A stretch of 64,000 nucleotides of DNA from Veillonella seminalis (GTDB lineage: Bacteria; Bacillota; Negativicutes; Veillonellales; Veillonellaceae), in NCBI RefSeq assembly GCF_003992065.1, contig NZ_RQUZ01000010.1, forward strand, positions 1 to 64,000, in the 5' to 3' direction. Numbering within the stretch: the stretch's first letter is position 1; each line of letters opens with the position of its first letter. Both the position numbers and the translations under genes were made by a program. Positions 54,860-61,472 of this stretch are shown here, piece after piece. The notes beneath the pieces are model-generated. The model ran no database searches. It worked only from the letters and a program-made list of their open reading frames with translations, and was not told the DNA's origin.

Positions 54860-55501
54860 ATGACAACTGGTGAGATTATTGCAAATCTCATATCTGTATT
54901 AAGTTTATTCATTGCATACTTAAGCTATCGAAACACAAGAAAAGCCATTACAGTTGATTTTGCTCCTAATTGCTATCTACTGAACCCAAAGAAGGATATC
55001 ATCTCTTCTGAAGAACTAATTCATGATGTTAAGGCAACACGAGCACTATACACCACCATAAATATCGTTAATTCTAGTTGTGTTAATATGGCTTATATGG
55101 ACTTAAGAGCGTTCGACCCCGTAAGTAATGCCAATCACTTTATTGCGACATATAGGACCCTTCCTTTTTTAAAAAATAAAAATATACTACTGTCTCCATT
55201 TGGTCCTAATGCATTAGACAATTTTGTAATTACACTCCCTGACAGAATATTTGCACCACTTCCAGCCGGTTCTTGTACTTCCATTGATGTTCTCATTTAT
55301 ATAAACGACAATGTTGATATTAGTAATGGTGTTATGGTCAGTATAAAAACAACGGAAACTACTTTATTGAAAAGAAGTCCTTGGTCAAATACTAATCGTA
55401 AAAAGTTTAGAGCATATAGCTATCTATATGATTTAAGTAAATCAGATACAGGTTCATTAGAACCGCCAATACAGCCAACAATAAAGCAATCTCAGGACTG
55501 A
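54860..55501 (+). CDS. Membrane-anchored cargo protein of unknown function, 213 aa
   Basis: Starts MTTGEIIANLISVLSLFIAY after GAAGGGAGGTGATTATA. One N-terminal span (IIANLISVLSLFIAYLSY) is followed by a soluble, strand-rich domain (TTINIVNSSCVNMAYMDLRAF, NFVITLPDRIFAP, TSIDVLIYINDN). It is the only plus-strand gene within the minus-strand early operon and has its own promoter, the mark of a lysogen-expressed moron. A role in host or superinfection exclusion is only a guess. Confidence 0.7.
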   Translation: MTTGEIIANLISVLSLFIAYLSYRNTRKAITVDFAPNCYLLNPKKDIISSEELIHDVKATRALYTTINIVNSSCVNMAYMDLRAFDPVSNANHFIATYRTLPFLKNKNILLSPFGPNALDNFVITLPDRIFAPLPAGSCTSIDVLIYINDNVDISNGVMVSIKTTETTLLKRSPWSNTNRKKFRAYSYLYDLSKSDTGSLEPPIQPTIKQSQD

Positions 55502-55541
55502 TTAATATTTCTATAAATCGTTCCCATTTATTATTTTCCAT
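55407..55541 (-). CDS. 44-aa membrane peptide overlapping the cargo gene
   Basis: Starts MENNKWERFIEILISPEIAL and ends HIDSYML. Residues about 14-38 (SPEIALLLAVLAVLMNLYLIY) are one span. The ATG lies 6 bp after the zinc-ribbon gene, whose stop is embedded in this gene's AGGAGGTGA site, so translation is coupled. Its 3' 95 bases are antisense to the end of the plus-strand cargo gene. Function unknown; small hydrophobic peptides of this size can be lysis or toxin factors. Confidence 0.6.
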   Translation of the reverse strand: MENNKWERFIEILISPEIALLLAVLAVLMNLYLIYLNHIDSYML

Positions 55542-55546
55542 TGATT

Positions 55547-55732
55547 TCACCTCCTCGCCTTTACTTGACACAATGCACAAACCTCGATAACTCCGTATTG
55601 CCTATCAAATATTTTGTAGGTTTTGCGGTTTGTTACCTCTGCCCCACATTGGTGGCAAACTATTCGCCCGCCTATCAACGCCTTAACCGGATTTAATTCC
55701 AGTTCGGGCTTTTTTTGTTTTTTCTTTTTCAT
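55547..55732 (-). CDS. Zinc-ribbon protein, 61 aa
   Basis: Basic N-terminus (MKKKKQKKPELELNPVKALI) then CHQCG and, 29 residues on, CALCQ, a two-CxxC zinc ribbon. A truncated second copy lies at 54304-54390. It begins with an ATGA overlap with the upstream coiled-coil gene. It probably binds nucleic acid or protein; nothing more specific is seen. Confidence 0.7.
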   Translation of the reverse strand: MKKKKQKKPELELNPVKALIGGRIVCHQCGAEVTNRKTYKIFDRQYGVIEVCALCQVKARR

Positions 55733-55884
55733 TTCATCACCAAATTACATTTAAACTGCTTAAGATTATTTAGAACTTCCAAAAGAGTAAGTTCTAAATA
55801 AATTACTCTTTCCTCTAATAATCTAATACGTTTAAGAGTTGAAAGTTGCTCCAGTAACTCTAGCTCTTTTTTATTTGGTGGCAT
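55729..55884 (-). CDS. Small coiled-coil protein, 51 aa
   Basis: Starts MPPNKKELELLEQLSTLKRI after GGGGTGAGGTAA and is almost entirely a leucine-rich heptad helix (LLEERVIYLELTLLEVLNNL). The stop overlaps the zinc-ribbon start (ATGA). Unknown function. Confidence 0.65.
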   Translation of the reverse strand: MPPNKKELELLEQLSTLKRIRLLEERVIYLELTLLEVLNNLKQFKCNLVMK

Positions 55885-55905
55885 TTACCTCACCCCCTCT
55901 TCTCT

Positions 55906-56157
55906 TTAATCTTCCATGGATAATGAATCAATTTTTAATGCTTTACATATTTTTATTACATTACTTATTTTTGCATCGGCCCCATTCTCAATATCCAATA
56001 TTGTTTTTCTACTTACACCAGCATTAATCGCCAATTGATACATTGATAATTTTTTCTTTTTTCTATTTTCTTTTACTACCTCAGCAAATTTAATAATAAT
56101 TCCTCCTAACATAGCGTTTATTTGACTAAACGATATTACAAACGTTAAAATATACAT
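55906..56157 (-). CDS. XRE-family regulator; start codon uncertain
   Basis: The helix-turn-helix KKLSMYQLAINAGVSRKTILDIENG and following helix KISNVIKICKALKIDSLSMED are clear. The ATG at 56157 gives 83 residues but has a weak site and an unlikely hydrophobic N-terminus. A strong AGGAGG lies further in and is followed at the right distance only by ATT codons (AATTATTATTAAATTT), so a rare AUU start giving about 60 residues is possible. ATG at 56112 lies on the ribosome site itself. It is a Cro-like regulator at the head of the early operon. Confidence 0.7.
   Translation of the reverse strand: MYILTFVISFSQINAMLGGIIIKFAEVVKENRKKKKLSMYQLAINAGVSRKTILDIENGADAKISNVIKICKALKIDSLSMED
56122..56151 (+). 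promoter_or_regulatory. Promoter of the structured RNA
   Basis: TTGACT (56122-56127), 18 bp, TAAAAT (56146-56151) on the plus strand, predicting a start near 56158. It overlaps the N-terminal coding region of the XRE gene on the other strand. CGTTT-containing repeats nearby (56115-56145) could be regulator sites. Confidence 0.6.
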
Positions 56158-56518
56158 GAGCCCTTGATTAGGCGTATGAAGGAGGTGGTTTCATGTTTTT
56201 GGGCCAGTTTTTGAATACGCCTTGTTCCTATCAATAAAAACATTAATAGTTTTACTGACTATCAATGTTTTTATTGGCTAATGCGGAAAGGCGTCTCGTA
56301 AGTTTTGGCTGTCCAAACAGCCCTAAGTGATGCGACTCATGAAGAAATAGTTGCTGATAACATCTATGCGTTTAAATTTAGTCGACGGAGGTCAAAAGTT
56401 TTGTCGAGAAGCTATACTTCGAAGCTCGGCACAAACTTGCTAAGTTTAAACGATGCAATGAGTTATAGGTAAAAAAGTTGGATAAAAAACTCTCGTATTA
56501 TCAGTGCGAGAGTTTTTT
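56158..56518 (+). ncRNA. Candidate structured noncoding RNA, about 360 nt
   Basis: A stretch without a credible gene, bounded by a promoter and a strong terminator (AACTCTCG/CGAGAGTT, 56488-56514, then TTTTTT). Plus-strand stems, in order: AGGCGTAT 56170/56215 (8 bp); an 18-position stem 56232-56249/56259-56276; GGCTGT 56307/56317; GATG plus GCGACT closing at 56349-56364; a 13-bp stem 56369-56381/56440-56452 enclosing TCGAC 56382/56403 and GAAG 56408/56417. GGAGG occurs twice, each in a hairpin loop. A 14-codon frame (MFLGQFLNTPCSYQ) follows the first GGAGG and may be a leader peptide. It does not look like tmRNA, 6S RNA or RNase P RNA. Confidence 0.6.
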
Positions 56519-56600
56519 ATTTTATACCCCCCCTTAACTTCACCATTTTTCGACATCATATTCTCCTACATTTATTTGGTGGCATATAATCACCTCTTTA

Positions 56601-56619
56601 GTTTAGTATGCTTAACTTT
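56601..56619. promoter_or_regulatory. Operator copy downstream of the cro-like gene
   Basis: GTTTAGTATGCTTAACTTT, an exact 19-bp copy of the operator at 56838-56856. It has dyad symmetry GTTxAG-TATG-CTxAAC. It overlaps the last codon of the cro-like gene, so it might act in looping or repress a downstream start. Confidence 0.65.
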
Positions 56620-56813
56620 CATTCTAAAAAATAAGCTGGTTCACATTCTAATGCTTGCCCTAATAATGACAATGTTTTGTTAGTTGTTACTCTTTGTGAG
56701 CCAGTTTCTAATTTAATAATTGTAATTCTTGATACTCCTGCTTTATTTGCTAACTCTTCTTGTGTATAGCCGCGCTTTATCCTCATTGCCTTTATCTTCT
56801 CACCAGTATTCAT
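56619..56813 (-). CDS. Cro-like XRE repressor
   Basis: 64 residues from MNTGEKIKAMRIKRGYTQEE, ATG after GGGGGTGATAGAA. The helix-turn-helix YTQEELANKAGVSRITIIKLETG is followed by TLSLLGQALECEPAYFLE. It is divergent from the CI repressor with the operators between them, so it is the natural Cro counterpart. First gene of the minus-strand early transcript. Confidence 0.85.
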   Translation of the reverse strand: MNTGEKIKAMRIKRGYTQEELANKAGVSRITIIKLETGSQRVTTNKTLSLLGQALECEPAYFLE

Positions 56814-56837
56814 TTCTATCACCCCCTTACCAGTTTT

Positions 56838-56856
56838 GTTTAGTATGCTTAACTTT
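56838..56856. promoter_or_regulatory. Operator between cro-like and CI genes
   Basis: Same 19-bp sequence as at 56601-56619, lying just downstream of the minus-strand early promoter start. Repressor bound here would block the early transcript. Confidence 0.7.
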
Positions 56857-56862
56857 AATTGA

Positions 56863-56892
56863 AGTATATCATCTACCCCCTCAACATGTCAA
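56863..56892 (-). promoter_or_regulatory. Early (PR-type) promoter
   Basis: On the minus strand TTGACA (56887-56892), 18 bp, TATACT (56863-56868). The -35 overlaps a palindrome AAGCATGCTT (56891-56900) shared with the divergent CI promoter. Confidence 0.72.
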
Positions 56893-56927
56893 GCATGCTT
56901 TACATTTTTGTTTTTAAAATGTATAAT
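56891..56927 (+). promoter_or_regulatory. CI promoter and shared operator
   Basis: TTTACA (56899-56904), 17 bp, TATAAT (56922-56927) on the plus strand. The palindrome AAGCATGCTT (56891-56900) overlaps both divergent -35 boxes, and a partial operator (ATACTTAAC) follows the -10. This gives mutual exclusion of lysogenic and lytic transcripts. Confidence 0.75.
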
Positions 56928-56957
56928 ATACTTAACATAAGAAAGAGAGGTGCAATA

Positions 56958-57638
56958 ATGCATATAGGAGAATTAATAAAAAAATATAGAATTGATAATA
57001 AATTGACTATGGAAGAAATGGGGAAACTTCTAGACGTAAGCAAAGCATATATATCAATGTTAGAAAAAAATAAAAATTCTCGCTCTGGAAAACCTATTGC
57101 GCCTTCAACCGCTATATTCAAATCTGTAGCAAATTTATATAATATCTCATTAGATGACCTTTTAAAACAACTAGATGATGAGCAACCAATCACTTTAGAT
57201 GTTAATGTTATAGATAATGGCATTAATTTTTCAAAACGTGTAGGCGTTCAAATTCCTATTTTAGGCTCTGTTATCGCTGGTACCCCTATCAGTGCTATCG
57301 AAGATATACTAGGCTATGAAGAAATTACCCCTGAACTTGCTTCTACAGGTACATTTTTTTGCTTAAAAGTAAAAGGGAATAGTATGGAGCCTAGATTATT
57401 TGAAGATGATATTATCGTTGTTAAACAACAACCTGATATTGAAAGCGGTGACGTCGCTGTAGTACTCGTCAATGGTGATGAAGCAACAGTTAAACAAATA
57501 AAAAAAGCCGATAATGGCATTACCCTTATCGGTTATAATGTAGCGGTTTATCCCCCTACCTGTTACAGCAATGAAGACATTATTAATTTACCTGTTACTA
57601 TTATTGGTAAAGTTATAGAGTTAAGGCGACCTTTTTAA
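56958..57638 (+). CDS. CI/LexA-type self-cleaving phage repressor
   Basis: 226 residues from MHIGELIKKYRIDNKLTMEE, ATG after GAGAGGTGCAATA. The N-terminal helix-turn-helix (LTMEEMGKLLDVSKAYISMLEK) is followed by an S24 peptidase domain with cleavage bond Ala107-Gly108 (VIAGTP), catalytic Ser142 (GNSMEP) and Lys179 (EATVKQ). It maintains lysogeny and should be cleaved when RecA is activated. The longer frame from 56859 overlaps the promoter and is rejected. Confidence 0.92.
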   Translation: MHIGELIKKYRIDNKLTMEEMGKLLDVSKAYISMLEKNKNSRSGKPIAPSTAIFKSVANLYNISLDDLLKQLDDEQPITLDVNVIDNGINFSKRVGVQIPILGSVIAGTPISAIEDILGYEEITPELASTGTFFCLKVKGNSMEPRLFEDDIIVVKQQPDIESGDVAVVLVNGDEATVKQIKKADNGITLIGYNVAVYPPTCYSNEDIINLPVTIIGKVIELRRPF

Positions 57639-57726
57639 AGGATATGTCTAGAGATTATATTGATTTTGTCGTCAATATAATTGAAAACTTAAAGAAGCGC
57701 AAAGGGAAATATATAGCATTTTTTCT

Positions 57727-57820
57727 AAAATGTTGGAGATAAATTTTTAACTCCTCTATTTTTGTAAAAATGTTGGAGATAAATTTTTAACTCCCCTATT
57801 TTCCCGAAAATGTTGGAGGT
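57727..57820. repeat. 40-bp tandem repeats before the Fic gene
   Basis: Two full copies (57727-57766 and 57767-57806) and a partial third. Each starts AAAATGTTGGAG and contains GGAG and CTCC arms 12 bases apart. The third copy supplies the real ribosome site (TTGGAGG) of the Fic gene. The earlier CTCC arms could pair with it, so the repeats may control translation or bind a regulator. 57639-57726 holds nothing else clear. Confidence 0.75.
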
Positions 57821-57824
57821 GCTC

Positions 57825-59105
57825 ATGCAAAACAAACCTTTAAAAACAATCTTTCACATAGATGAAACCCTAGTTGATGAGATTTACAAAAGTAGATTTT
57901 ATGCTCCTTATACTCAAAAACTAGGAATTTATACAAAAAAAGATTCTCGTGATAATACTTATGAAATGTTCACTTGTATTACCCCTGAAATGATGCTCCG
58001 TGAACAACGGATTAATGATTTAATATTAAAATTAGAACGCATTATACATCCAATTCCGCCTATAGCAATTAAGCAATTCTTTACTTCGTGTCTAAGAGAT
58101 GAAATTAAAGCAACAAACGATATTGAAGGTGTCCATAGTTCAAGAAAAGAGATTGATTATGCATTAGAGCAACAACAACATCCAGAAGAAAAGAAAAATA
58201 CACGCCTCTGGGGAATTGTTAATAAATACCAAAAACTCATTACTAATGAAAACATCTCTTTTAAAACATGTGAAGATTTAAGAATATTCTATGATGATTT
58301 TGCCTTAGATGAAGTTGTGAATGATGATCCTAAAAATATACCAGATGGAAAATATTTTCGAAAAGATAGTGTATCTGTAAATGATGGATTTAAAGATATC
58401 CACACAGGCTTATCTCCAGAAGATAAAATCATTTCTACCATGACTATTGCTTTAAACATATTAAATGATATTAATACGCCATTACTGACTAGGATAAGTA
58501 TTTTCCATTATCTTTTTGGCTATATACACCCATTCTATGATGGTAATGGTCGTACATCCAGATTTATAACTTCTTATTATTTAGCCCATAATAAAAATCC
58601 ACTGTTGGCAATTAGATTATCTGTAACAATTAAAAGAGCCAAACGCTTTTACTATAAATTATTTGAGGATGCCAACCAACCATTAAATAGAGGTGAATTA
58701 ACCTACTTTATATTGGGCTTTTTGGCTATATTTGAAAAATCACTAACAGAAACTATAGAAATACTTGAAAAAAAAGCTAATGATTTTAATATTTATCAAA
58801 AAATACTCTTCTCAAGCGATTTGAAAAAACCAGATAAAAAAATATACAACGTACTACTACAAGCAGCTTTATTTTCTGATAATTTAGGTGCCACTGTAAA
58901 AGAAATTGCAGAAACTATTGATCAACATGAAAACACAGTTCAAAGAAATCTTCAACGAATGCAAGAAGAAACTAATTATGTACTCGTTCACCGTAACCAA
59001 AGGGCTTACAGATATGAGTTAAATTTAAACAATTTTTTAATTGCTCATCATGCTGATTTAGAAGATTTAAAAGAACTTGAAGAATTAATATCTAAACATA
59101 AATAA
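57825..59105 (+). CDS. Fic-family AMP-transferase
   Basis: 426 residues from MQNKPLKTIFHIDETLVDEI, ATG after TTGGAGGTGCTC. The Fic motif is complete (H235-PFYDGNGRTSR) and an N-terminal inhibitory motif T97-NDI-E101-G is present, the class in which the same chain holds the enzyme off. A C-terminal winged helix (TVKEIAETIDQHENTVQRNL) follows. The last 17 residues (ADLEDLKELEELISKHK) are identical to the end of the RhuM protein downstream, at DNA level too, so the 3' end was exchanged. Fic proteins attach AMP or related groups to host proteins. Carried as lysogen cargo. Confidence 0.9.
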   Translation: MQNKPLKTIFHIDETLVDEIYKSRFYAPYTQKLGIYTKKDSRDNTYEMFTCITPEMMLREQRINDLILKLERIIHPIPPIAIKQFFTSCLRDEIKATNDIEGVHSSRKEIDYALEQQQHPEEKKNTRLWGIVNKYQKLITNENISFKTCEDLRIFYDDFALDEVVNDDPKNIPDGKYFRKDSVSVNDGFKDIHTGLSPEDKIISTMTIALNILNDINTPLLTRISIFHYLFGYIHPFYDGNGRTSRFITSYYLAHNKNPLLAIRLSVTIKRAKRFYYKLFEDANQPLNRGELTYFILGFLAIFEKSLTETIEILEKKANDFNIYQKILFSSDLKKPDKKIYNVLLQAALFSDNLGATVKEIAETIDQHENTVQRNLQRMQEETNYVLVHRNQRAYRYELNLNNFLIAHHADLEDLKELEELISKHK

Positions 59106-60290
59106 AAAATGTCCCCCACCCTGCGCCAACAGGATGAGGGAATAAGCTTATTATATCGCCTAGAAAGCAAAAAAAAAATAATAACTGAAATAGTTTGTTC
59201 AAATTATAGAAATAAGAAAAAGACCTTTGAGATATTGCAAAGGTATAGAAAATTTAGAAGGGCAAGTTCATGGATAATATAATTATATATAACACAGAAG
59301 ATGGAGAAACTAATGTAAAACTATATGCCAATGATGGAACTGTATGGATGACACAAAAAAGTATGTCACAATTATTTGAATGTTCTACAGATAATATTTC
59401 GCTCCACCTTAAGAATATTTTTTCAGATAATGAACTAGACAAAAAAGCAGTTACCGAGAATTCCTCGGTAACTGCAGCTGACGGTAAAACCTATCAAGTA
59501 ACACTCTACAATCTTAATGCCATTCTAGCAGTAGGTTTTCGAGTCCGCTCTAAAAGAGGTGTTCAATTCAGAAAATGGGCTAATACAACATTAAAAGAAT
59601 ACATGCAAAAAGGATTTGTTATTGATTCCGAACGCCTTAAAAATCCAGATGGTCGCCCTGATTACTTTGATGAGTTATTAGAGCAAATCAGAGATATTAG
59701 GGCAAGTGAAAAACGTTTTTACCAAAAATTAAAAGATTTATTTGCCTTATCGTCAGACTACGATAAAACAGATGTTGAAACCACAAAATTTTTCACTGAA
59801 ACACAAAATAAGCTTATTTATGGTGTAACAGGAAAAACAGCTGCTGAACTTATCGTATCACGAGCGGATGCAAACAAACCCAATATGGCATTAACCTCTT
59901 GGAAAGGTAAAATTGTACGAAAACAAGATATTACTATCGCCAAAAATTACTTAACTCATAATGAGGTTGATTCCTTAAATAGATTAGTATCCATCTTTTT
60001 AGAAAGTGCCGAACTAAGGGTAAAGTTAAAAAAAGACCTGACTCTTACTTATTGGCGAAACAGTGTAGATAAACTGCTAGTAGATTATGATATACCTTTA
60101 TTAAATACACTTGGTCAAGTATCACATGCCTCTATGGTCAAATTAGTAAATAATACCTATACCGACTTTGATGCACGAAGAAAAAAAGAAGATGCTAAGC
60201 TAGCTGATTTAGAAGATTTAAAAGAACTTGAAGAATTAATATCTAAACATAAATAAAAAATGTCCCCCACCCTGCGCCAACAGGATGAGG
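59052..60290. repeat. 88-bp perfect direct repeat at the ends of the Fic and RhuM genes
   Basis: 59052-59139 and 60203-60290 are identical over 88 bp. Each copy includes the last 17 codons, the stop and a terminator-like hairpin (CCCTG/CAGG region). The repeats bracket the whole RhuM gene, giving a unit of 1151 bp that could be lost or gained by homologous recombination. Confidence 0.92.
59270..60256 (+). CDS. RhuM-family protein
   Basis: 328 residues starting MDNIIIYNTEDGETNVKLYA. The RhuM family core is clear: VWMTQKSMSQLFECSTDNIS, HLKNIFSDNELDKKAVTENS, VTLYNLNAILAVGFRVRSKRG, QFRKWANTTLKEYMQKGFVID. The C-terminal half has a helical domain with FFTETQNKLIYGVTGKTAAEL, and the tail DARRKKEDAKLADLEDLKELEE is natural for RhuM. 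The biochemical role is unknown; RhuM proteins occur in defence islands and next to toxin genes. It starts 130 bp past the Fic terminator. Confidence 0.87.
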   Translation: MDNIIIYNTEDGETNVKLYANDGTVWMTQKSMSQLFECSTDNISLHLKNIFSDNELDKKAVTENSSVTAADGKTYQVTLYNLNAILAVGFRVRSKRGVQFRKWANTTLKEYMQKGFVIDSERLKNPDGRPDYFDELLEQIRDIRASEKRFYQKLKDLFALSSDYDKTDVETTKFFTETQNKLIYGVTGKTAAELIVSRADANKPNMALTSWKGKIVRKQDITIAKNYLTHNEVDSLNRLVSIFLESAELRVKLKKDLTLTYWRNSVDKLLVDYDIPLLNTLGQVSHASMVKLVNNTYTDFDARRKKEDAKLADLEDLKELEELISKHK

Positions 60291-60392: not shown

Positions 60393-61472
60393 ATGAGAAG
60401 AGCAAATGGAACAGGCTCAATCTACAAAATGAAACACAAGAATTTGAGAAAGCCCTATAGGGTGGTTATTACTACCGGCTTTACTGATGACGGTAAAGCG
60501 ATCCGCAAAACAGTAGGTACATTTAAAACCGCTAGAGAAGCACAAGAATATTTGAGCAATTATAAAGGCAATCCGACAGAGATTACTAATCGAATAATTA
60601 CCGTTGAGCAGTGTTGGCAGTGGATGCTTGACATCAAAACACGCAAAGGCGTGGGTTTAACACCATATAACACCGCCAAAAAGAAAATTGAACATTTATT
60701 TAAATTGCCTATGACTGATGTGCGACTGGCTGACTTACAGGCTGTTATTGATGCGTACGCCGATAAAAGCCGGTCGTTAATTGTACAAATTATGTGTGCA
60801 TTTCACGGCTTATATGAAGCCGCCGACAAAAACGATGTGCCCGTTGCTAAAAACTATGCAAAATATATCATACTACCACCGGAACCGGAGAAAGCGGAGA
60901 TACATAAGCCGTACACTATGCCAAAGATATTGGAATTATGGCAGTCTGATGATATAGTCGCCAAATGGCAACTCGTGTACATATATACAGGCATGCGCCC
61001 TAATGAATTAGTTAAAATGCGTCTTGAAGATGTGCATATTAAAGAACGTTACATGGTGGGCGGTTCTAAGACCGCCGCCGGCAAAAACAGAATTATCCCC
61101 ATCGCTGAATGTATTGTCCCAATTATTACAGAGATGCACGCACAGGCTAAATTCAAAAGGCTTGATACGTTTATCCCACTCGACAAAAATGCCGATTTGA
61201 TTAGAAAACGCATCAAAAAAGCATCTGGGCACTTACCACATGACGGACGGCACACATTCGCTACACTTGCCGATGAATATAAGTTAGATTCAAATATCAC
61301 TAAACGAATCCTCGGGCACAGCTTGCGAAAAGACATCACGCAAAATGTATATATCCACAAAGATGCAAGTGCATTGATAGCAGCCGTCAACCTATTACCA
61401 AATTATTATGATATTAAAAAGGTTGTGCAAGAGTTGAGCAACAAGCAAGAAATTACCCCTATGAACGCCTAA
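60393..61472 (+). CDS. int: Tyrosine integrase
   Basis: 359 residues, start after AAGGAGCGTGATTTTTTT. The N-terminal AP2-like arm-binding domain (GSIYKMKHKNLRKPYRVVIT, FKTAREAQEYL) and the core-binding region are followed by the catalytic set Arg202 (TGMRPNEL), Lys226, His283 and Arg286 (LPHDGRHTF), His309 (LGHS) and nucleophile Tyr320 (NVYIH). It integrates and excises the prophage. It is the last gene of the element, next to the presumed attR. Confidence 0.93.
   Translation: MRRANGTGSIYKMKHKNLRKPYRVVITTGFTDDGKAIRKTVGTFKTAREAQEYLSNYKGNPTEITNRIITVEQCWQWMLDIKTRKGVGLTPYNTAKKKIEHLFKLPMTDVRLADLQAVIDAYADKSRSLIVQIMCAFHGLYEAADKNDVPVAKNYAKYIILPPEPEKAEIHKPYTMPKILELWQSDDIVAKWQLVYIYTGMRPNELVKMRLEDVHIKERYMVGGSKTAAGKNRIIPIAECIVPIITEMHAQAKFKRLDTFIPLDKNADLIRKRIKKASGHLPHDGRHTFATLADEYKLDSNITKRILGHSLRKDITQNVYIHKDASALIAAVNLLPNYYDIKKVVQELSNKQEITPMNA

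Follow-up and report, generated by a model that had tools for sequence, protein, structure and literature searches.

Small phage RNAs that are made against a lytic early operon from a place near the lysogeny switch are represented by lambda OOP and P22 sar, which measure 77 nt and 68/69 nt, respectively, in the table of a review (PMC12197685). The RNA described here resembles both in lying by such a switch and opposite the lytic operon, whereas silencing of lytic mRNA is only putative in its case. Neither OOP nor sar is known to form a large, covarying structure that includes a leader frame. A second point of reference is the lambda promoter pRE, which is located beyond cro and is directed through antisense cro to cI. 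Our RNA likewise has a promoter-like site beyond a cro-type gene, aimed through antisense cro at cI, the difference being that a large structured RNA, complete with a terminator, is placed between that site and cI. GOLLD, ROOL and OLE are also large structured bacterial or phage RNAs with kissing contacts, and the RNA differs from them in its Rfam match (none to these) and in its genomic context.

The RNA belongs to FuFi-1 (Rfam RF02986), a family that reportedly goes back to Weinberg et al. in 2017, who may already have drawn some of the contacts given below or noted the phage context. No paper on its function was found in a search that covered open-licence literature, from which the name 'FuFi-1' is absent. 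Among the open-licence papers listed for OOP, sar, kissing loops and leaders in lysogeny, none appeared to describe a similar RNA. As far as this literature search reaches, the wider architecture of the RNA and its strong association with the lysogeny switch appear to be new.

The analysed stretch of DNA (the window) comprises 64,000 nucleotides of a Veillonella seminalis contig and was compared in full with Rfam 15 at curated thresholds. The sole gathering-level match is FuFi-1 at positions 56282–56519 of the plus strand (82.6 bits against a cut-off of 59.6, E 5e-16), and the alignment spans the full model (1–175 of 175). An initial annotation had called the RNA unrecognised and had named an unambiguous match to an established RNA family as what would overturn that description, which the FuFi-1 match replaces. 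It had also set the RNA apart from tmRNA, 6S and RNase P, to which, as to GOLLD and ROOL, no Rfam match was obtained anywhere in the window at these thresholds. The consensus helices and the UAAGUGA, AGAA, UGCAA and GGUAAA words of FuFi-1 are present, with a few non-standard pairs. The window carries a real, well-folded and new member of a family that is catalogued, with the Rfam type 'Gene; sRNA', but is functionally an orphan.

The Rfam match does not describe the whole unit, which starts roughly 125 nt before the modelled core. The wider boundary drawn in the initial annotation is better than that of the Rfam match, which begins only at 56282. From 56157 to 56520 the RNA folds with −118.6 kcal/mol (z −6.8), and none of 100 shuffled sequences folds as well, in line with the earlier claim of a structured RNA. 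A promoter-like TTGACT-18-TAAAAT site is indeed found at 56122–56151 of the same strand (10/12 positions). By itself this site proves nothing, since a scan of 55000–58000 finds 14 sites of this quality where shuffles give 13.6. Among relatives, 20/34 loci reach 9/12 positions compared with 20% of shuffles. The strong terminator that had been proposed corresponds to a plus-strand hairpin at 56481–56521 (−21.3 kcal/mol, z −8.2) with the loop TTATCAG at 56498–56504. In our preferred reading, the FuFi-1 unit here is about 360 nt long in total and would be made from its own promoter.

Within the core, also on the plus strand, the Rfam alignment places hairpin 1 at 56307–56322, with the loop CCAA at 56313–56316, and hairpin analysis and covariation place hairpin P3 at 56347–56367, with the 7-nt loop CTGATAA at 56354–56360. 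P3 is followed by a long variable arm at 56368–56452 (Rfam alignment and folding) and by UUGG at 56478–56481, the 3′ strand of a pseudoknot with hairpin 1 that was recognized by covariation. The long-range stem previously drawn around smaller hairpins recurs in the minimum free energy (MFE) fold of 56324–56470. The long A/T-rich stem of 18 positions at 56231–56277 (plus strand) also exists and is strong in the window (z −8.2). However, a near relative (L002) has one arm altered and its fold drops from −18.2 to −7.9 kcal/mol, and so this stem is no conserved part of the RNA.

Relatives were gathered by searching whole genomes with the Rfam family and by patterns for hairpin 1 and for the leader, and they do not constitute a random sample. 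We accepted 37 loci, of which 31 were found through the core at 40 bits or more, three through the leader (L213–L215) and three as weaker core matches of 26–32 bits retained because a leader is present (L007, L008 and L199). Ten matches of 16–31 bits were put aside (L006, L211, L212, L220–L222 and L194–L197), partly because no leader was seen. Selecting weaker loci by their leader is circular, and the leader count given below is therefore limited to the loci of at least 40 bits, none of which was dropped for a missing leader. Copies were left out of the counts (L209, identical to L182, and L181, L187, L188, L130 and L143). A first pattern for viral sequences proved too loose, and of its 120 stretches only L033, recovered again by a second pattern, was taken further. 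The phage record MT835537 was added later through BLAST.

The first 75 nt or so of the unit form a conserved 5′ domain with a Shine–Dalgarno (SD) sequence, an ATG or TTG start and a frame of 11–36 codons. In relatives, the sequence just 5′ of the core holds TGCC-type and GGCA-type words, an SD sequence of the type AAGGAGnTGG and a start codon, and the frame is of the type M-T-K-L-L-x-L-P-[AVC]-[PS]. This leader is present in 29/31 core-found relatives of at least 40 bits, the exceptions being L191, which has no leader, and L192, which has lost the SD sequence and the start. Conversely, all four records retrieved by means of the leader (L213, L214, L215 and MT835537) have the core directly 3′ of it. 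In many members from viral contigs and gut bacteria (L175–L180, L182, L183 and L207), leader and core are separated by a further domain of some 100 nt or longer, of the type GTCGCAA...CACCGTATCAAGTACTCC, which is absent from the window.

In the window, the SD sequence AAGGAGG (56179–56185, plus strand) is placed by folding and leader comparison within the P1 domain, where it is paired, and it precedes a frame of 14 codons at 56193–56237 that encodes MFLGQFLNTPCSYQ before its stop. The frame has counterparts in relatives and an SD score of 6/6, and the earlier statement that the unit holds no credible gene is not confirmed. The annotation had also placed GGAGG twice in hairpin loops. The second copy (56387–56391), in the long variable arm, is mostly in a loop, but the first (56181–56185) lies in a stem of the MFE fold, and the ribosome contact suggested for these words stands only as far as an SD sequence with a start codon recurs in relatives. 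Among 34 scored loci, 24 begin the frame with TTG and 10 with ATG, and 31 match AGGAGG at five or more of six positions, with SD, start and stop positions chosen by the analyst. Three loci (L176, L185 and L219) have TTA in place of the usual TTG and an in-frame ATG just upstream.

Such a frame would be expected if the RNA were a messenger for a functional peptide of 11–36 residues, such as a signal or membrane peptide, with the structure serving stability. We consider this very unlikely despite the SD sequence and start in the 34 scored loci, because the frame does not include the covarying core and the leader lacks a codon-position signature, with flat variability of 0.94, 0.90 and 0.98 bits over the three positions in these loci. 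Since the codon positions vary equally, the case for leader translation rests on the SD sequence, start and stop.

For each proposed contact, the complementarity of a locus's own two strands was compared by permutation with that of strands taken from different loci. L191 and L199 were left out of these covariation tests and of the leader-frame scoring, and L192 was left out of the leader pairing tests and of the same scoring. Compensatory changes in homologues, named at the outset as a check, were looked for and found both in a kissing loop and in other contacts. The Rfam structure line draws all strands of the kissing loop and of the hairpin-1 pseudoknot, and the core strand that pairs with the leader, as unpaired. 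Although the window core covers the whole model above the gathering score, the model is without the leader domain, the kissing loop, the hairpin-1 pseudoknot and the leader–core pairing of the unit.

Covariation is strong for the kissing loop, which would join the 7-nt loop of P3, a junction hairpin, to the loop of the terminator. In the window these loops read CTGATAA and TTATCAG. At least six Watson–Crick pairs are formed in 29/35 loci compared with 7% of mismatched cross pairs (0/2000 permutations), a test in which some terminators misassigned by the scripts (for example, in L192 and L008) were kept as they were. Among 29 loci with 7-nt hairpin loops, a set that retains some misassigned P3 hairpins (for example, in L003, L004, L189, L190, L193 and L214), 71% of positions are Watson–Crick in register compared with 18–33% when the loops are slid by one to three positions, and each of the seven pairs occurs as at least three pair types (0/2000 permutations).

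The complementarity of these two loops is also what a self-assembling RNA would have, with the loops joining separate copies of the RNA in the manner of the kissing loops of GOLLD or ROOL; a paper on ornate RNAs mentions kissing loops (PMC12286853). The sequence data fit pairing within and between molecules alike, but the GOLLD and ROOL models gave no Rfam match, and we regard assembly of this kind as very improbable.

The pseudoknot and the leader–core pairings covary more weakly. Complementarity between the hairpin-1 loop and UUUGG 5′ of the terminator averages 4.38 for own strands and 3.86 for cross pairs (2/5000 permutations, 34 loci), with compensated versions in L003 (CCACA/TGTGG), L210 (CCTAA/TTAGG) and L214 (CGATA/TATCG). 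The other pairings involve four strands, all on the plus strand: a (GCCC, 56160–56163), b (AGGCGTAT, 56170–56177), a′ (ATACGCCT, 56215–56222), which lies within the leader codons, and b′ (AAGGCGT, 56288–56294) in the core. Stem P1, in which b forms the 5′ strand and makes 8 bp with a′, is part of the MFE fold and closes the SD hairpin, with a mean complementarity of 4.97 for own strands and 4.02 for cross pairs (0/5000 permutations, 34 loci). L214 preserves this stem with CGCTCT/AGAGCG instead of GGCA/TGCC. Strand a′ can alternatively pair with b′ (own 4.97, cross 4.30; 0/5000 permutations, 34 loci), through 7 bp in the window (ACGCCTT/AAGGCGT), and the variable base of this pairing occurs as T-A, C-G or A-T. 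The pairing a:b′ also exceeds its cross value (own 5.41, cross 4.56; 0/5000 permutations, 34 loci), to which a 14-bp case in L216 contributes. For all contacts other than the kissing loop the mean gain is below 1 bp, and the permutation statistics ignore kinship among loci. The pairing a:b is not significant (574/5000 permutations, 34 loci). When 27 leaders were aligned with MAFFT and folded with RNAalifold, no pairs emerged, with strand b out of register in that alignment.

Compensatory change of this kind is maintained across unrelated flanks, and the FuFi-1 structure must therefore matter as RNA. The window and one other genome (G001) are 95.6% identical over 434 nt of the RNA region, and no other stretch longer than 47 nt aligns in the rest of the 3.2-kb loci. 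The RNA is thus kept between flanks that cannot be aligned, and so behaves as a module. It is also rare. The home genome has a single copy, and 1/6 other genomes of the genus carries one. With the home genome included, matches occur in 7/300 genomes of the class at E 0.001, two of them above the cut-off, and in 2/398 genomes of the phylum. A weak match below the cut-off in the control genome Bacillus subtilis, if real, would offer a possible laboratory model for FuFi-1.

The window RNA, L129 and L176 gave no similarity matches in a phage collection, nor did L176 in a plasmid collection. L213 and L215 matched only the leader stretch of MT835537 in the phage collection, apart from a 35-base match of L213 to a Pasteurella phage. 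Scans with the family found no member in phages phiC2, A118, phiFL1A, Sfi21 and phiadh (0/5) and one among five further phage records, MT835537. This held-out record has both leader and core (95.6 bits). By eye, its P3 loop CTGTTTC is matched by GGAACAG in the terminator, and HTH-like frames lie 3′ of the RNA on the same strand. One locus (L172) carries two diverged, weakly scoring FuFi-1-like RNAs, L005 and L008 (40 and 29 bits), in tandem about 1 kb apart upstream of a single repressor.

The window is a tailed-phage prophage, with terminase, portal, major head and tape measure genes recognized by PHROGs families and an integrase at 60393–61472, and the RNA occupies the lysogeny region, as the initial annotation had placed it. 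It lies between two minus-strand HTH_3 regulators identified by domain match, one at 55906–56127 that is divergent from the RNA and a Cro-like one at 56619–56813 that is convergent with it. Farther downstream, on the strand of the RNA, is a CI-like repressor with HTH and Peptidase_S24 domains (56958–57638; domain and PHROGs matches).

Several repeats surround these genes. An exact 16-nt repeat, TTAGTATGCTTAACTT, flanks the Cro-like gene (56603–56618 and 56840–56855) and may represent operators, although the search tolerated three mismatches and, at that stringency, two matches turn up in 29/100 shuffles. By eye, AACGTTTA-like half sites at 56113–56149 overlap the RNA promoter and might serve the divergent HTH gene as operators. 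Operator-like words common to the RNA promoter and the cI region were found in 6/31 loci, one of them a trivial SD match, and shared operators were dropped as weak. Two 40-nt direct repeats that are 90% alike (57718–57797), with a partial third copy by eye, lie directly 5′ of a Fic-domain gene (57825–59105). Through a 98-nt repeat that is 96% identical (59042–59139 and 60193–60290), the Fic gene and the adjoining RhuM gene share a C-terminal peptide and their 3′ flank, a trace of duplication or recombination.

The same arrangement recurs in relatives. A CI-like HTH regulator lies 3′ of the RNA on the same strand in 33/35 loci whose flank is long enough to judge, which L208 and L214, with only 229 and 632 nt downstream, are not; the two loci without it are L199, a 3′-truncated copy, and L191. 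Among 32 distinct repressor proteins, 29 match HTH_3 and 9 Peptidase_S24 in Pfam; in PHROGs, 31 match phrog_8 and 30 match phrog_4, annotated as transcriptional repressor. In 24/33 loci, RNA and repressor are separated by a small Cro-like HTH gene encoded on the opposite strand. A scan of 22 distinct genes from this interval gave 13 matches to HTH_3 and 6 to DUF739. One of 36 neighbour proteins matches Bro-N plus ANT and is, by sequence, the gene upstream of L129, whose other neighbour, judged by eye, resembles the phage regulator Rha.

In the window and in these 24 loci the RNA is opposite in direction to the Cro-like gene. With the CI-like regulator downstream on the RNA's own strand in 33/35 loci, the RNA runs against the lytic operon, and position alone cannot separate 'on the cI strand' from 'against the lytic operon'. 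Its place and direction tie FuFi-1 to the lysis–lysogeny switch. The comparison of loci suggests a front part with a tiny frame, a contact with the terminator and a near-fixed place by this switch.

This arrangement would also suit a conditional cI leader, in which a pRE-like promoter reads through antisense cro into cI and the RNA sets passage through the terminator, and with it the repressor level in cis. Beyond the downstream repressor, this account draws on the nine of 33 loci where no Cro-like gene was found in between and the repressor starts 65–510 nt past the core, on the absence of a U-run after the last hairpin in four of those nine (L190, L192, L193 and L198), on the kissing contact of the terminator loop and on the leader frame with its SD sequence. 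It is weakened by the lack of an antiterminator: in 29 loci, neither terminator arm has a covarying upstream partner (own 4.90 and 5.48, cross 4.98 and 5.38; 2070 and 904 of 3000 permutations). Furthermore, 1–2 kb including minus-strand genes intervenes between RNA and repressor in some loci, and L190 has a promoter-like site, by eye, between the RNA and cI. We judge such a leader rather unlikely.

Alternatively, the RNA could act in trans as an sRNA whose conserved C/U stretch (UUCCC type), located just 3′ of a′, pairs with SD sequences in mRNAs of the phage or the host. Its position within the lysogeny module would then set only the timing of its synthesis. The stretch is found in 29/30 loci by a loose pattern, and its pairing with the leader's own SD sequence is unsupported (2710/3000 permutations, 30 loci), so that it has no covarying partner there. 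The Rfam class and L191 also fit this proposal. L191 (L233 from 6983; 55.4 bits, below the cut-off) is a leaderless, chromosomal relative that lies, by eye, before a glutamate-synthase-like gene. Its loops GTATCAT and ATGATAC are complementary (noted by eye, with both words confirmed in the sequence), and it looks like a real FuFi-1-like RNA, which speaks for roles of FuFi-1 outside lysogeny. However, the C/U bases double as leader codons, and their conservation may serve the peptide, and the near-fixed orientation to the repressor would need a separate reason. Action in trans strikes us as rather improbable.

Our tentative preference is for FuFi-1 as a cis-encoded regulator that favours lysogeny, with a ribosome-gated fold and a terminator kissing loop, opposite the lytic early operon. 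The RNA would be transcribed from its own promoter next to the CI/Cro switch, on the strand opposite the lytic early operon, and both this transcription and the RNA itself would oppose a lytic transcript crossing the locus. Because b:a′ and a′:b′ are mutually exclusive and share a′ within the leader codons, we propose that ribosome entry at the short leader frame gates the fold. A ribosome on the leader would hide a′, free a′ would pair either with b, closing the SD hairpin, or with b′ in the core, and the kissing loop to the RNA's own terminator hairpin would pin the resulting fold. The sequence comparison establishes the family, the extended architecture, the covariation and the position and orientation of the RNA; transcription, ribosome binding, exchange between the two states and the lytic genes as target are the steps that we infer.

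A more specific version, which we regard as doubtful, is a translation-sensing switch. In it, ribosomes on a leader of about 12 codons would shift the exchange among a, b, a′ and b′, the kissing loop with the terminator would serve as the readout, and the state of host translation would decide between lytic transcription and repressor expression in temperate phages of Firmicutes.

For an orphan family, the position at the lysogeny switch, the 5′ domain missing from the model and the kissing loop with the terminator provide a specific and testable role. If the ribosome-gated model is true, FuFi-1 would represent an RNA-level input to a decision that is usually credited to proteins and peptides.
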